The translations under genes were made by a program, and so were the position numbers. A stretch of DNA of 51,811 nt from Candidatus Desulfofervidus auxilii (lineage in GTDB: Bacteria > Desulfobacterota > Desulfofervidia > Desulfofervidales > Desulfofervidaceae). Positions 12,287 to 19,710 of this stretch are shown piece after piece (the first letter of the stretch is position 1; every line of letters starts with the position of its first letter). The notes beneath the pieces were generated by a model that was not told the DNA's origin, did not search any database, and was given only the letters and a program-made list of their open reading frames with translations. The stretch is from contig NZ_CP013015.1 in assembly GCF_001577525.1 (NCBI RefSeq), forward strand, positions 1,442,618 to 1,494,428, read 5' to 3'.

Positions 12287-13105
12287 TTATTTCATCTCCC
12301 ATACCTGAACCCAGATGACTGCATCCTGGGAAAGTTCCTTTCCGTTGTGTTTTAGATCCCCGCCTGCACCCAGGGCTGCAAAGCCCCACCAGCCTGCCCT
12401 GGGAAGACCAAAGGTAAATACACCATTTGAGTCTGCCTTGATAGTCTGGGTAACAAATGCATCATGAGGAGCCTCTACCTTGGCTTCCTTAACAAAGGCA
12501 TTCCCCTTGATATCATGGTTCATGTACTCCACTTCGATCTCAGCGTTGGGCACTGGTTTGCCACCGCATGTGACCACACCGCGGAACACATTACCCACCC
12601 ACAGGGCATAAGGTTTGTCCAAAGGGATAATCTCAACCGGCAGAGGGTCACCTACTGCTGCGTCCCAATCTGTTGGTGCACCAGCCACGTTGAAAATGAC
12701 CTTGGTGCAATGCTGTATATATATGTCTTCTGAAGGTTCATAATAGGGAGCAGGCACAAAATAGAAGACATGATCCCCCATGCCTTTTAGTTTAACATCA
12801 GCCTCATAAGCCCTACCGCTATTGGTCAAACTCCTAAAGGTAATTGGCCTTAGTTTTTTTAATAAATCCCTTTTCTTTCCCTTGTGCATTACGCCAAACG
12901 CTATGGGTGGGTGTATCTCACCCTTTTCATCTTTTCCAATGTCCATGGTGTGACCTGCCTCAAATGGGTGGGTGAAGATCAGCTTGAGATTAATCTTTTT
13001 CGTTTTCGGGACGCTGTCCGGGCTATAAATCATCTGAAAATGGGCAAATGCAGAAATACTTAGCATAAATACAAATACCATACTTAATAACATAATTTTT
13101 TTCAT
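12287..13105 (-). CDS. DUF4198-type periplasmic protein
   Basis: A 272-aa exported protein with a signal peptide ending AFA-HFQM. The mature N terminus begins with His, a feature of several metal-handling periplasmic proteins. IFTHPFEAGHTMDIG, the DHVFYFVPAPYYEP block and the late GVVTCGGKPVPNAEIEVEYM carboxypeptidase-regulatory-like beta domain are typical of DUF4198 proteins, which often accompany metal transporters. It lies between the Cys-rich secreted protein and the porin, in line with feoAB. A periplasmic iron- or nickel-binding function is plausible but unproven. Confidence 0.75.
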   Translation of the reverse strand: MKKIMLLSMVFVFMLSISAFAHFQMIYSPDSVPKTKKINLKLIFTHPFEAGHTMDIGKDEKGEIHPPIAFGVMHKGKKRDLLKKLRPITFRSLTNSGRAYEADVKLKGMGDHVFYFVPAPYYEPSEDIYIQHCTKVIFNVAGAPTDWDAAVGDPLPVEIIPLDKPYALWVGNVFRGVVTCGGKPVPNAEIEVEYMNHDIKGNAFVKEAKVEAPHDAFVTQTIKADSNGVFTFGLPRAGWWGFAALGAGGDLKHNGKELSQDAVIWVQVWEMK

Positions 13106-13120
13106 CTCTTATCCTCCTTT

Positions 13121-13441
13121 CTATTCAGTGATGTCTTTACTATCTACCTTAACTGCATGACCTGGCCCTGCATCAAAGACCACTGTATAAGGGACATCTG
13201 GCTTTTTAAAGGTAAATTCACTATCTTCATTCATCTTTCCCTTTATCAATACCTTTCCACTCTTATCCAACACAGTCATACTTACGCCAGCAGCAGAAGA
13301 ACCATCAGAGAATCCACCCTCACATGTCACAGTGCCATCTCCATTGTCACAACAAGAGCAAAGCGGGGTGTGGGCATAGGAATAATTAGCCAAAAACACC
13401 ATAACTATAAGACCAAATAAACAAATTAAGGCCCTTTTCAT
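13121..13441 (-). CDS. small secreted Cys-rich protein
   Basis: A 106-aa protein with a signal peptide (KRALICLFGLIVMVFLA, cut near SYA-H). The mature protein starts with HTPLCSCCDNGDGTVTCEGG, giving four cysteines near the N terminus, followed by a small beta domain (GVSMTVLDKSGKVLIKG). The His plus CxCC cluster is a good metal-ligand set. It sits 15 bases after feoB and 15 bases before the DUF4198 gene, so the three are surely cotranscribed and it probably belongs to the iron system. No named family is recognised. Confidence 0.7.
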   Translation of the reverse strand: MKRALICLFGLIVMVFLANYSYAHTPLCSCCDNGDGTVTCEGGFSDGSSAAGVSMTVLDKSGKVLIKGKMNEDSEFTFKKPDVPYTVVFDAGPGHAVKVDSKDITE

Positions 13442-13456
13442 TATCTCACCTCCTTT

Positions 13457-15964
13457 CTATGCAATTTTTGGTTCTCTTTTGATAAATCCCATTATTGCTG
13501 TGCATATTATTGCCAAGACATAAAAGGCAACCATTGCCTGAATTCCTGAAAGTCCTAAAAGATTTCCTCCCGTGAACACAAGGATTGCTATTATAAGCCC
13601 CAATATAATGGGGTAGATTGTGGCAAATAACATCCATTTTGTGCTTCCGGTCTCCAACCGCACCATGATCAGTGTAGGAATGCAGGGAGGATACATGGCC
13701 ATAAAAAGCATTATGGCCAAGGCATGAAGTGGTGTCCAACCCGTCTCTTTCCTCTTCATCCTCTCCCCAAGTTGTGCCTCTTCACCTGGTGAAGATTGAT
13801 AAATGCTCCCCAGGGTTGCTACAGAATTTTCCTTTGCTGCAAAGGAGCTAATGAGAGCAATATTTATGCGCCAGTTAAATCCTGCAAATCTTGTAAATGG
13901 CTCTATAGCACGGCCAACACGCCCCAGAAAGCTTGATATGACTGTCTCATCCTTGATGTCACGCCTGAGTTTCTTTCTTACCCGGGCAAGTTTCTTGTAT
14001 GCCTTATAGACCTTTTTTGCATCTTTATCATCCTTTATCTTTTTCCCCTCAAGTTTATACTTTCCCTTTTTCACTATCTTGTAAAATTCAATATTTTTGG
14101 CCCTAAACTTTTCATCAATAGCCCTTTTTGCCTCCTTCCCCTTTGCCCTCATCATAGCAACCTTATATGAGTCCCAATATCTGGTAAATTCCATAAGCCC
14201 TTCGCCAGCCAAGCGCTTGGCATATGGATTGTCTTTTCCTATTTCCCTATAAAACTTTTCAATTGCCTGATTTGCCCTTTTTTCATAATAGGCCTTTCTC
14301 TCTTTACTTATTCCAGGCATGCTAATGAGTGCATAGACAATAGTGGCTACTGCGATAATGATGGTTATAACCTTTCTTACAAATAGCCATGTCCTTTCTA
14401 AACAACGGCGTAAGACACCAGAAATTGTAGGGATATGATAAGGAGGAAGCTCCATTACAAATGGAGCACTTTCTTTTCCCTTAAGCACAGTAATGTTTAA
14501 GGCCTTAGCTACACCAAGGGCTATGATTAGTGTGATTGTGGCTATAAAAAACATGGTAGGTGCCTTATATGCAGCAAAGAACATACCAATTAAGAGTACA
14601 TAGAGTGGGATCTTGGCCATACAATTCATAAGAGGTACAGTAAGTATTGTTGCCATACGGGCCCTTTCATCCTTTATGCCACGGCACGCCATGACACCTG
14701 GTATAGCTCAGCCACCTACATATACACCACCCAATATATAAGGCAGAGTAGATTGTCCATGGAGGCCAAAACGCCTAAAGATACGGTCTAAGATAAATGC
14801 CATACGCGCCATATAGCCTGTATCTTCCAGTATGGCTATTAAGGCAAAGAGGATAAGAAAGATAGGGACATAATTTAGGACTGCCACAATCCCATCAATG
14901 ACCCCTAAAGGTACTGAACGAAGGAGTGGGTCAAAGATAAACCCCTCATGGGGAAGGATTTTTGCCATAAGGTTTCTAAAGGAGGCCAAAATGGGCCAGG
15001 TATAATTGGTAATATTGTAGCCTTGGACTATAGAGAGTTCATATAGACCATAGATAACAGCAGCCAGGATAATAAAACCAAAGACCTTATGGCAGACAAC
15101 TTTATCAATCTTATCAGATAGGGTTAAGGTTACTTCCTTTTTTCTCTTAATGACACCTTCTACAATCTTCTCTGCAGTAAGATAACGCCTTTGGGCGATG
15201 ACCTTCTCGGGGGCCTCTTTATATTGAGATATAAATCTCTCCCTTTCTTTTTTTACATAATCTAGGATTTCCTTCCCATCTTTTAATCGCTCTTGAACAA
15301 GCCTTTCTGCCTCACTATCACCTTCCATAAGCTTTACAGCAAGCCACCTTAGGGGATAGCCTTGAGAGAGTGCAGATTCTTCTGAAAGCCTTTTTTCTAA
15401 GGAGGATAGTATAGGCTCTAGGGCATTACCATAATTAATGCGGATAAGGCTAGAATGGATATTTCCCTTGGCAACGTCCCATATTGCCTTCTGAATTTCT
15501 TTTTTCCCTTTCCCTTTATTACCAATTGTTGGGATTACTGGAACCCCCAACTGTCTGCTCAATTTGTATATATCTATCTCAAGTCCCCTGCTTTTTGCTA
15601 CATCCATCATGTTTAAATCAATTACCAATGGAATTCCCATCTCACCAAGCTGAAATGCAAAATAGAGATTTCTTTCAAGATTTGATGCATCTACTATATC
15701 AACTACCAATTTTGGCCTTTCATGGAGGAGAAAATCCCTTGCTATGCGCTCTTCTAATGTGTATGAGGTAAGGCTATAGGTACCAGGCAAATCAACCAGT
15801 TCTATCCTATCTCCTTGAAACTTAAATACTCCAGTCTTCTTCTCAACAGTTACACCAGGATAATTGGCCACATGCTGCCTAGCCCCAGTAAGGAGGTTAA
15901 AAATAGTGGACTTACCAGAATTTGGCTGGCCGGCAACTGCTACTATAATTCTTTCCTTTTTCAT
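13457..15964 (-). CDS. feoB: ferrous iron transporter FeoB, candidate selenoprotein (Sec419)
   Basis: FeoB is the inner-membrane ferrous iron permease with a cytosolic G domain. The frame is 835 codons long and interrupted only by one TGA (14708-14710, codon 419). The G domain shows G1 GQPNSGKS (12-19), G3 DLPG (58-61) and G4 NMMD (118-121). The first gate reads ILGGVYVGG-(TGA)-AIPGVMACRG, so the TGA falls exactly at the conserved gate Cys. The second gate AAKENSVATLGSIYQ and the helices are intact after it. A lysine-rich insert of about 150 residues sits between the gates. A SECIS-like hairpin follows the TGA. Readthrough as Sec is inferred; a nonsense mutation is the alternative. The start overlaps feoA as ATGA. 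Confidence 0.85.
14677..14710 (-). promoter_or_regulatory. candidate bacterial SECIS element with the UGA codon
   Basis: On the transcript the UGA is followed by 11 bases, then UGUCAUGG-CGUG-CCGUGGCA, an 8-bp stem that pairs at every position (with two G-U pairs) around a four-base loop. The loop has G in its second place and lies 20-23 bases after the UGA. As I recall the E. coli fdhF SECIS, its upper stem-loop also begins 11 bases after the UGA. The hairpin lies within codons for PGVMACRGI, so it must serve both coding and structure. Confidence 0.6.
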
Positions 15965-16188
15965 AATGGTTCCACCTCAATACCTCTAGCCTCTGAATGA
16001 CGGAGGCTGACATGATATCCTCTAATATAAAAATCAACTGGGTCTATAAGTGGTGCATTACGCACTACCTTTACCTTTGTTCCAGGCATAAAGCCCATGT
16101 CCATTAGGCGCTGCCCTGTAGCACCGCCTATATTTACCTTTATAATGCGGCATTCTTGACCAGGCTTTATCTCATCTAATGATGCCAC
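15961..16188 (-). CDS. feoA: FeoA, SH3-like partner of FeoB
   Basis: A 75-aa cytosolic protein with the FeoA core: IKPGQECRIIKVNIGGA, QRLMDMGFMPGTKVKVVRNAP and a closing FYIRGYHVSLRHSEARGIEV. FeoA supports FeoB-dependent ferrous iron uptake. Its stop overlaps the feoB start (ATGA), so the two are translationally coupled. The upstream spacer carries an AT-rich dyad at 16208-16229 that is the probable operator. Confidence 0.92.
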   Translation of the reverse strand: MASLDEIKPGQECRIIKVNIGGATGQRLMDMGFMPGTKVKVVRNAPLIDPVDFYIRGYHVSLRHSEARGIEVEPL

Positions 16189-16347: not shown

Positions 16348-16578
16348 ATGAATGGCTTAATCCCACTCAGTATGGTAGATGGAAGCAAGGAAGTGACAGT
16401 AGTAGCCATAAATGCAGGCAGGGGTCTACAGGCAAGACTCTTTAGCCTAGGGCTCATTCCAGGGGTTACCATAAAGGTGCTCAGTAATTCACGTCCAGGC
16501 CCTGTGCGGATATCAATAAAGGATACAAGGCTTGCCCTTGGCTGGGGTGTAGCCCAGAAAATCATAGTAAGCGAATAA
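16348..16578 (+). CDS. second FeoA-domain protein, divergent from feoAB
   Basis: A 76-aa FeoA-like protein: VDGSKEVTVVAINAGRG, QARLFSLGLIPGVTIKVLSNS and DTRLALGWGVAQKIIV give the full SH3-like fold. It is on the opposite strand to feoA-feoB, with 159 bases of shared AT-rich promoter DNA between them. That DNA includes a TTGACA at 16282-16287 and a TTAATT/AATTAA dyad near 16291-16306. Extra free-standing FeoA proteins may be regulators or partners of another transporter. No second feoB is in the window. Confidence 0.88.
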   Translation: MNGLIPLSMVDGSKEVTVVAINAGRGLQARLFSLGLIPGVTIKVLSNSRPGPVRISIKDTRLALGWGVAQKIIVSE

Positions 16579-17578: not shown

Positions 17579-18964
17579 TTATATGTCTGATATTTCAAAA
17601 TTAAATAAACTCTCTAAGTCCCAGGCCCATAGGAGTTGATATTGTAAACTGCTTCGTAATTGTTGAAATTGTTTAATTTCTTCTGAGGTAGCCTCTCCTG
17701 TCTTTACCTTGGTCCTTAAATCAAAAAACCCTTGGGGGAAAATTTGGGGTTTAACCCAGAGAGTGATCTTTTTCCTTAGATGGTAATCTTTAATTTTATA
17801 ATAGTAATTATCGGCATTTAGATACCGTGGGTCTTGAGAACCCTGACTAACAGTAGCAGCCAATTTTTCAAAGGCCTCCCTCGTCCCATGAGTGGTTTGT
17901 TCTGTGAATACTTCCAGATCCTCCTTGTTAGGAATATAGTCTCCTGCTTGATTTAAAGCCAGTTGGAAAGCCTTATAAGCGAAGAGAGCACAAAGGCATA
18001 TCTTCTCGTTATCTTCAATACTATTTTCAATGGTATTGATTTCTTTTAGCTGGCCGTTTTCATAAATGACGATATCTGGAGTTATTGTTTCTGCTATTCT
18101 GGTTTCAATAATTTTTGATACATATTTTGAAGGAAGCAGTGGATCTTCAATGTAAAAAATCTTAATTCCATGAATATGTTCTTTGATTTCATCGGCATAA
18201 CCAGGCACAAGTTGATTGGTAAGAAAACCTGGGGCAAGAAAGAAGGGAATACCAACGAAAGTCTCGTTATTTTCACAATAATTCTCAATACAATAATTTT
18301 TTATCTCTTTTAAGGAATCTAAAAATTCGTATGATAGGCTTTTAAAGGGAAGATTGTATTTAGTCAGAAGATAGTCACCCACTTTCTGAGAAAGACTGGT
18401 AAACATTGATTGCCAAGCATCAATAAATTCTTCATCACCGTGACCTATCAAAACCAAATTTGTATCTGAAATGGATAGGTCACCTCTTTGCAAAAACTCT
18501 TCTAACGCCCACACACGGTCAGCCAAGACTTTCACAGCAAAGGGATGATCATCTATCGCCCTGGTCAATTCAATGGGTAAAACTGTACTCACTGGTTCAA
18601 GTGGCTCCTCAGAAGGATTATCCGGCCTTAGGCCCAAGATGTATTTAATTTCTTCTATATGTCCGCTCTGGGAAGAGATAAATAAAGGCATAGCAATAAT
18701 CTTTTCTATATTTTGCTCTTCCAGGGACGATACTGCTTCAGAAATATTGGGATGGGTAAATTCCAGAAAACCGATTTCCACAGGGAAAGGTGTTTCCATA
18801 TCCTCAACAGCCCATTCCACATACCGATTCCAATCTTTGTTTGGAGAGCCATGAGCAATGACTAAAATACCTATATTAGGTGAAGTTTGAGCAGAAACCT
18901 GAGTAAAAAAGCCTAAAAAGATAAATAACCATAAAAAAACTAGCATTTTAGCTATCTTTTTCAT
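17579..18964 (-). CDS. exported CbiX/CbiK-like chelatase with C-terminal extra domain
   Basis: A 461-aa protein with a signal peptide ending in VSAQ. Two chelatase half-domains follow. The first is LVIAHGSPNKDWNRYVEWA with MPLFISSQSGHIEE. The second is VLIGHGDEEFIDAWQSM with GIPFFLAPGFL. Together they resemble sirohydrochlorin cobalt/iron chelatases. The last about 140 residues (CLCALFAYKAFQLAL, THGTREAFEKLAA) weakly resemble the FmdE domain. Sulfate reducers have a periplasmic CbiK form linked to haem or iron handling, which suits an exported protein in an iron locus. The start overlaps the triple-FeoA gene by 4 bases. Substrate unknown. Confidence 0.75.
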   Translation of the reverse strand: MKKIAKMLVFLWLFIFLGFFTQVSAQTSPNIGILVIAHGSPNKDWNRYVEWAVEDMETPFPVEIGFLEFTHPNISEAVSSLEEQNIEKIIAMPLFISSQSGHIEEIKYILGLRPDNPSEEPLEPVSTVLPIELTRAIDDHPFAVKVLADRVWALEEFLQRGDLSISDTNLVLIGHGDEEFIDAWQSMFTSLSQKVGDYLLTKYNLPFKSLSYEFLDSLKEIKNYCIENYCENNETFVGIPFFLAPGFLTNQLVPGYADEIKEHIHGIKIFYIEDPLLPSKYVSKIIETRIAETITPDIVIYENGQLKEINTIENSIEDNEKICLCALFAYKAFQLALNQAGDYIPNKEDLEVFTEQTTHGTREAFEKLAATVSQGSQDPRYLNADNYYYKIKDYHLRKKITLWVKPQIFPQGFFDLRTKVKTGEATSEEIKQFQQLRSSLQYQLLWAWDLESLFNFEISDI

Positions 18965-19710
18965 TTTGACCCTCCTTGGTTAATTGGGCTGACCATGACC
19001 TTTTCTGCTATTCCACGACCGATAGAAACAGCAAGCTGATTATCTACAGTGAGATAAAAAATACATCCCGCATGTTTTGCCAGGCCGGATGTAGCCTTGC
19101 GAGAGATCAATTCAATCTCCTTACCTATTCCTATTCCCGCCTCTTTTAAACGCTCCTCCAAATGGATACCACCTATGAGGCCGGCGATCTTGCCCCTATC
19201 TCCTAGTGCAAGATAACTAAGCTGTAAGCTCTGCCCATCCTTTTCCACCAAAATTTTTGAGGCCTCTCCAGTGCAAAGCTCAAGTTCTTTGTCATCCACC
19301 TTGATATTAAAGCTCTCTTCTGCTACATGTCCGGTAACTTTTATCTTTGTGCCTTCTTTAAGTCCCAATTTTTCTAAAATGTCCCTCGCCTCCTTACCAG
19401 CCGCTATCCTCTTAAGTATCCCATTTTCTCCTGCCTCCATTTCCAGAAGGTGTTTCTCTACTCCGTTCACATCCATAATCACTTTGTCCGCTATACCCTG
19501 CGCCAGAACAAGCTTTTTTCCTTCTAGCTCAAGACCCAATGGTCCTCGGTGTTCATGGGTAAGGCTACCCTGAAAACTAACCTTTACCCCTTCTCTTATG
19601 CCTAATTCGTTAAGGTATTCCTTTAATTCCTTTCCTCCTTCAATACTTATCACCTCAAAATTTCTCACTTCTCCTTTAACATAGTCTGTCAGCCTTCCTA
19701 CCTCTGCCAT
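18961..19710 (-). CDS. three tandem FeoA-like domains in one protein
   Basis: A 249-aa soluble protein made of three FeoA/SH3-like repeats of about 75-80 residues. Each has the family turn: LNELGIREGVKVSFQGS, LEKLGLKEGTKIKVTGH and LKEAGIGIGKEIELISRK. Each ends with the strand that closes the fold: LAQGIADKVIMD, CTGEASKILVE and IGRGIAEKVMV. FeoA is normally a single-domain partner of FeoB. A triple fusion away from feoB is unusual and may bind metal ions or a nucleotide cooperatively. It lies between the NifX-like gene and the exported chelatase in a tight minus-strand operon. Confidence 0.85.
   Translation of the reverse strand: MAEVGRLTDYVKGEVRNFEVISIEGGKELKEYLNELGIREGVKVSFQGSLTHEHRGPLGLELEGKKLVLAQGIADKVIMDVNGVEKHLLEMEAGENGILKRIAAGKEARDILEKLGLKEGTKIKVTGHVAEESFNIKVDDKELELCTGEASKILVEKDGQSLQLSYLALGDRGKIAGLIGGIHLEERLKEAGIGIGKEIELISRKATSGLAKHAGCIFYLTVDNQLAVSIGRGIAEKVMVSPINQGGSK

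Follow-up and report, generated by a model that had tools for sequence, protein, structure and literature searches.

The feoB gene in the DNA analysed here (the window, 51,811 nucleotides of the Candidatus Desulfofervidus auxilii contig NZ_CP013015.1) very probably encodes a selenoprotein form of FeoB, with selenocysteine (Sec) at the in-frame UGA of codon 419; the probability of this reading is put at about 0.87. Bacteria import ferrous iron very widely through FeoB, by a membrane mechanism that is still unsolved. Prokaryotic selenoproteins are mostly redox enzymes; Sec in a transporter is unusual. The direct observations behind the reading are the codon, its open frame, selection on the gene, the recurrence of TGA among relatives, the presence of selB, selC and selD, and other UGA genes in the same genome. 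A preliminary description of the window, made from its letters, had proposed that Sec stands in place of Cys in a ferrous iron transporter, and this prediction is now supported by machinery, homologues and selection.

The gene occupies positions 13457-15964 of the minus strand and reads as 835 residues with a lone TGA at codon 419 (14708-14710, minus), followed by a TAG stop. The predicted Sec, which is Cys in nearly all relatives, lies in the protein context VYVGG-U-AIPGVMACRG. That the frame is open on both sides of one TGA over 835 codons had already been described, and renewed inspection bears this out: the strand is minus, and no second frame break exists. The product matches TIGR00437 with 481.6 bits (cut-off 315.65; NCBIfam) and contains FeoB_N, FeoB_Cyto, two Gate stretches and FeoB_C (Pfam/NCBIfam), which correspond to a G domain, a helical domain and a membrane domain with a possible CNT-like fold; by curated cut-off and domains it is FeoB, a predicted Fe2+ transporter. 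A small FeoA-like protein of 75 aa (15961-16188, minus), named from position, length and similarity, is encoded with a four-base overlap (ATGA) with feoB, and its gene terminates at a TGA that is a genuine stop, which excludes wholesale reassignment of UGA. The remainder of the common cassette comprises a divergent second small FeoA-like protein of 76 aa (16348-16578, plus; named by sequence similarity), an exported-looking protein of 106 aa just downstream of feoB (13121-13441, minus) without a Pfam match, and, as the final gene, a DUF4198 protein (12287-13105, minus).

Relatives were searched with stop read-through in 148 genomes and then in 395 genomes of the phylum, in addition to a one-genome-per-species scan, and FeoBs of this subfamily were recovered. 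Codon 419 is TGA in four genomes, namely that of the window (G000) and three related ones labelled G001, G015 and G160, whose FeoBs are 91%, 70% and 69% identical to the G000 copy, respectively; G001 belongs to the same family as G000 and to a different genus, and the G160 contig stops about 123 codons past the TGA. Four independent genomes exclude a sequencing error at the codon. TGT or TGC occupies it in 76 of 81 tree rows, and residue 419 is Cys in 39/39 other sequences of a 40-sequence alignment, in which the invariant membrane-domain cysteines are residues 419, 448 and 761. The preliminary description had looked to homologues for Cys or TGA at this codon, and these two were found, TGA in the three further genomes just named. 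One FeoB (L147, position 2737) has GGC for the invariant Cys codon inside GGGGGGGG, a run of G; this is probably a sequence error, or else a Gly variant. When the 81 FeoBs were placed on a tree with codon 419 masked, the four TGA copies required four changes, of which well-supported branches force at least three, and a single clade of TGA copies was rejected (AU test, p-AU 8.8e-64); Cys is found in the nearest relative of G015 (G087) and in relatives of G160. On this tree, the TGA form of feoB arose, or was swapped with Cys, at least three times. A census of stops placed all in-frame TGAs of the TGA copies at residue 419, and the few other in-frame stops among relatives lie at residues 223-230 or at the C-terminal end, as expected from frame breaks or assembly errors. 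TGA matches in G105, G017 and G118 were set aside, being elsewhere than at the gate codon, where these genomes have Cys. The G001 bin additionally holds a 5.2-kb contig (L042; G001:C52) with a Cys copy of FeoB, 88% identical, possibly a selenium-independent paralogue or material of a related strain (strain mixture).

Purifying selection acts on the half of feoB past the TGA. A comparison of the G000 and G001 TGA copies gives a dN/dS of 0.13 before the TGA and 0.17 after it; on the G000 branch alone, with the Cys copy as third taxon, the part after the TGA has a dN of 0.031 and a dS of 0.23 (dN/dS about 0.13), and variation in codons 420-424 (AIPGV) is synonymous only. Neither a true stop nor a pseudogene or split gene would predict these results. 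One base change suffices to turn a Cys codon into TGA, as a feoB broken by a nonsense mutation would require, but the recurrence of the same codon in at least three lineages, the purifying selection past it and the lack of any other frame break leave a pseudogene scarcely credible, and the selection test contradicts it. Nor is there much chance that residues 1-418 and a second product starting at ATG425 are separate proteins: an ATG does stand six codons past the UGA, and each half forms a long ORF, but residues 420-424, which would fall outside both products, are conserved at the protein level, the G160 copy has CTC (Leu) where ATG425 stands, and the cut would sit within an invariant motif.

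The cassette around feoB has a history of its own. The segment 12284-16575, which contains the second feoA-like gene, feoA, feoB, the gene for the 106-aa protein and that for the DUF4198 protein, has 91% DNA identity to its counterpart in G001 (L155), while the genes to either side of it are unrelated; the 106-aa protein is kept beside feoB in G001, G015 and G087. For G000 and G001, dS is about 0.3 in feoB but far higher, at a saturated 2.3, in selB. Given this gap and the unrelated flanks, the cassette was probably transferred horizontally, in an exchange between two Sec-decoding genera by which one TGA version would have moved as a feoA-feoB unit.

The preliminary description had proposed a search for the Sec machinery, and the outcome is mixed, selB, selC and selD being present and selA not being found in the assembly. 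The latter is a single contig of 2,540,211 bases, 99.97% complete, and carries full-length selB, selC (UCA anticodon) and selD, the last with an in-frame TGA of its own (start region MSYRLTEKVKASG-U-AAKLS). Sampling of UGA genes in G000 went family by family and recovered two FlpD/MvhD domains with TGA (...AGUHLGECHYLEGN... and ...GGUHLGECHYLEGN...), both having TGA counterparts in G001; among sulfate reducers, MvhD with Sec is an established selenoprotein (PMC2702500). The selB gene is present in each of the four TGA genomes. Searches of G000 for selA (TIGR00474; PF03841 up to E 10) found none, whereas PF03841 used in the same way recovered the gene from 16/16 further genomes, among them G001 and G015; an archaeal-type SepSecS, as a SelA substitute, likewise had no match in G000. 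The selA neighbourhood of G001 is split in G000, where 650 kb separate rho-prfA from the other flanking gene, and no selA occurs between or beside these neighbours (L073, L074, L067). A run of N in a transposase-like ORF (L065, 3013-3054) indicates that the single-contig assembly is not gap-free. An assembly gap, a recent loss or a substitute of another kind may account for selA, and the first two are favoured, since selection still seems to act on the UGA genes. Membership of FeoB among the selenoproteins is accordingly claimed from the four-copy family and not from G000 by itself.

Should selA have been lost recently from G000, UGA would be a former Sec codon, and feoB and the other UGA genes would now be truncated or mis-decoded, for example with Ser from unconverted Ser-tRNA(Sec). 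This reading is unlikely, if far from negligible: the failure to find selA in so complete a contig, with its G001-type neighbours apart and lacking the gene, speaks for it, but the frames of selB, selC, the Sec-type selD, two UGA mvhD genes and the UGA feoB are intact, and the feoB branch leading to G000 still shows the low dN/dS past the UGA given above; an assembly gap is possible, as the run of N illustrates, and so is a very recent loss that left no trace. It is distinctly improbable that the organism makes Sec without SelA, by way of a Sec synthase not yet recognised or some other path to Sec-tRNA(Sec), with selB, selC, the Sec-type selD and at least four UGA genes, feoB among them, kept. 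The idea that a suppressor tRNA reads the UGA as Cys, or as some other standard amino acid, has some footing in an extra tRNA of G000. This tRNA (2167631-2167723 of the genome; L011 1501-1593, L066 3632-3724) is tRNA(Sec)-shaped, scores 66 bits to RF01852 and bears the Cys anticodon GCA; it is a selC*-type tRNA(Cys), a deltaproteobacterial class of which some members have a UCA anticodon (PMC7609411). Nevertheless, GCA does not read UGA, and a normal UCA tRNA(Sec) is present, so decoding by such a tRNA is very unlikely. The extra tRNA lies directly upstream of presumed selenium genes of the DUF3343 and YedE types (named from sequence reading), and elsewhere (L064, 2920-5262 and 5329-6369, both minus) selD has immediately behind it a single long ORF that resembles a cysteine synthase-cysteinyl-tRNA synthetase fusion on the same kind of reading.

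For Sec insertion at codon 419, a signal in the message would be expected, and a bacterial SECIS is a hairpin directly downstream of the UGA with G among its first two loop bases. The candidate in feoB (14676-14697, minus) consists of arms at 14689-14697 and 14676-14684 and a loop at 14685-14688, GUGUCAUGG-CGUG-CCGUGGCAU; its 9-bp stem is made up of 8 bp and a closing G-U, and its loop lies 20-23 nt past the UGA and has G as its second base, so that the geometry given in the preliminary description (8 bp, a four-base loop, G at position 2, 20-23 bases from the UGA) is as described. A downstream hairpin whose first two loop bases include G is present in all four TGA copies, those of G015 (-8.8 kcal/mol) and G160 (-4.3 kcal/mol, a weak one) being weaker than that of G000. 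Among synonymous recodings, a G-loop hairpin at -10.7 kcal/mol or better arose in 12 of 1000 for the G000 segment, and one at -8.8 in 124 of 1000 for that of G015. Folding of the 51-nt segment overall is no better than that of shuffles (z -0.62), an alternative structure wins when all 54 nt of the G001 copy are folded, and synonymous-site conservation near the hairpin between G000 and G001 (16 identical codons) yields no evidence, equal runs occurring elsewhere in the gene. The hairpin is not confined to TGA-bearing relatives: an equally stable G-loop hairpin is found in 20 of 86 Cys homologues; it is common there because the conserved peptide (VMACRG) tends to encode one, and the hairpin was dropped as stand-alone proof. 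The most telling comparison is between the TGA and Cys copies of G001, the latter having CAUG in place of the CGUG loop, with loss of the loop G, and weakened stem pairs, all through synonymous changes. Taken as sequence, the hairpin is consistent with a SECIS and serves as supporting evidence, not proof: it is moderately beyond chance, and the position of the TGA is beyond chance. Sec-MvhD (FlpD) and Sec-SelD of sulfate reducers, found in the same genomes, resemble feoB in combining a UGA with a hairpin and an apical-loop G, but they belong to known families and share a GGA loop, whereas the FeoB loops are CGUG, UGUA and CGUGC.

In the predicted structure, residue 419 lies between short helices 406-414 and 420-429, with low confidence at the tip, and Cys761 takes the matching spot of the second gate, between helices 745-757 and 762-772. 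The membrane domain was folded alone because a fold search with the whole FeoB model gave, among the families listed, matches to the G domain only. Its model aligned best with CNT chains (VIA-align Z 14-16 over ~325 residues at 10% identity), followed at a clear distance by the ArsB family (Z 11); Foldseek with the same model returned no significant match (E above 0.05), and a PDB sequence search with FeoB retrieved the cytosolic domain only. The fold of the model may be CNT-like; the substrate is different. In CNTs, both re-entrant hairpin tips bind substrate, and it may be inferred that Sec419 and Cys761 lie on either side of the Fe2+ site. The equation of the TGA site with the gate Cys of known iron-conduction work, made in the preliminary description, had to be abandoned: C429 (FMSCGARL) and C675 (YVPC) of Pseudomonas aeruginosa FeoB map to C448 and C761, respectively, according to our own mapping from published primers (PMC4847171). 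C429S kept Fe-stimulated GTPase activity and C675S lost it, and a counterpart of residue 419 is absent among the mutants found in that work (PMC4847171). As residue 419 maps elsewhere than the tested cysteines, its part in iron conduction is something we infer and not something known. Recurrent Cys-to-Sec change at just one of three invariant membrane cysteines would mark 419 as the chemically active one, and the exchange of Cys and Sec there would argue that the thiol or selenol contacts iron, or is redox-active, in transport.

In the mechanism proposed, SelB would bind the mRNA hairpin just past UGA419 and bring Sec-tRNA(Sec) with its UCA anticodon, whereupon the ribosome would place selenocysteine at position 419 and complete the 835-residue protein. 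The first re-entrant helical hairpin of the membrane domain would then have Sec in place of the invariant Cys at its tip, pseudo-symmetric to Cys761 at the second tip. A selenolate is better deprotonated and softer than a thiolate, and in a sulfidic habitat it would likely bind Fe2+ or pass it on at the substrate site.

Sec-FeoB would represent a new predicted selenoprotein family, the Sec variant of FeoB; what is new is the family and its iron-importer role, Cys-to-Sec exchange within known families being already well known. The Cys form (TIGR00437) has the same domains and the same FeoA operon partner, and its C448 and C761 are retained here, but it has Cys419 where the four genomes have an in-frame UGA. 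In line with the preliminary description, no earlier account of a Sec-FeoB was found: FeoB is absent from the 2026 review of prokaryotic selenoproteins, with 'Feo' and 'ferrous' nowhere in it (PMC13188914); two Haft papers on novel selenoproteins were covered through this review, which cites them. FeoB is also not mentioned in the deep-Sep paper, the 2022 and 2006 reviews and surveys, or the marine survey, and a full-text literature search for FeoB with selenoprotein or selenocysteine returned nothing relevant. Predicted Sec transporters are listed in the 2026 review, namely SO_0444 Cu/Zn efflux, YeeE/YedE, SaoB/SaoP, a mercuric transport protein and a cation ATPase (PMC13188914). Like Sec-FeoB, these are membrane proteins with Sec for Cys, mostly predicted without experiment, but none of them is FeoB or a ferrous iron importer. 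The TGA form, known here from a few sulfate-reducer-type bacteria, would therefore be a previously unlisted selenium protein, and such feoB genes will have been annotated by gene callers as two ORFs. Upstream of the feo cassette lie genes for a protein with three FeoA domains (18961-19710, minus) and a CbiX-domain protein (17579-18964, minus), neither of which is conserved in G001.
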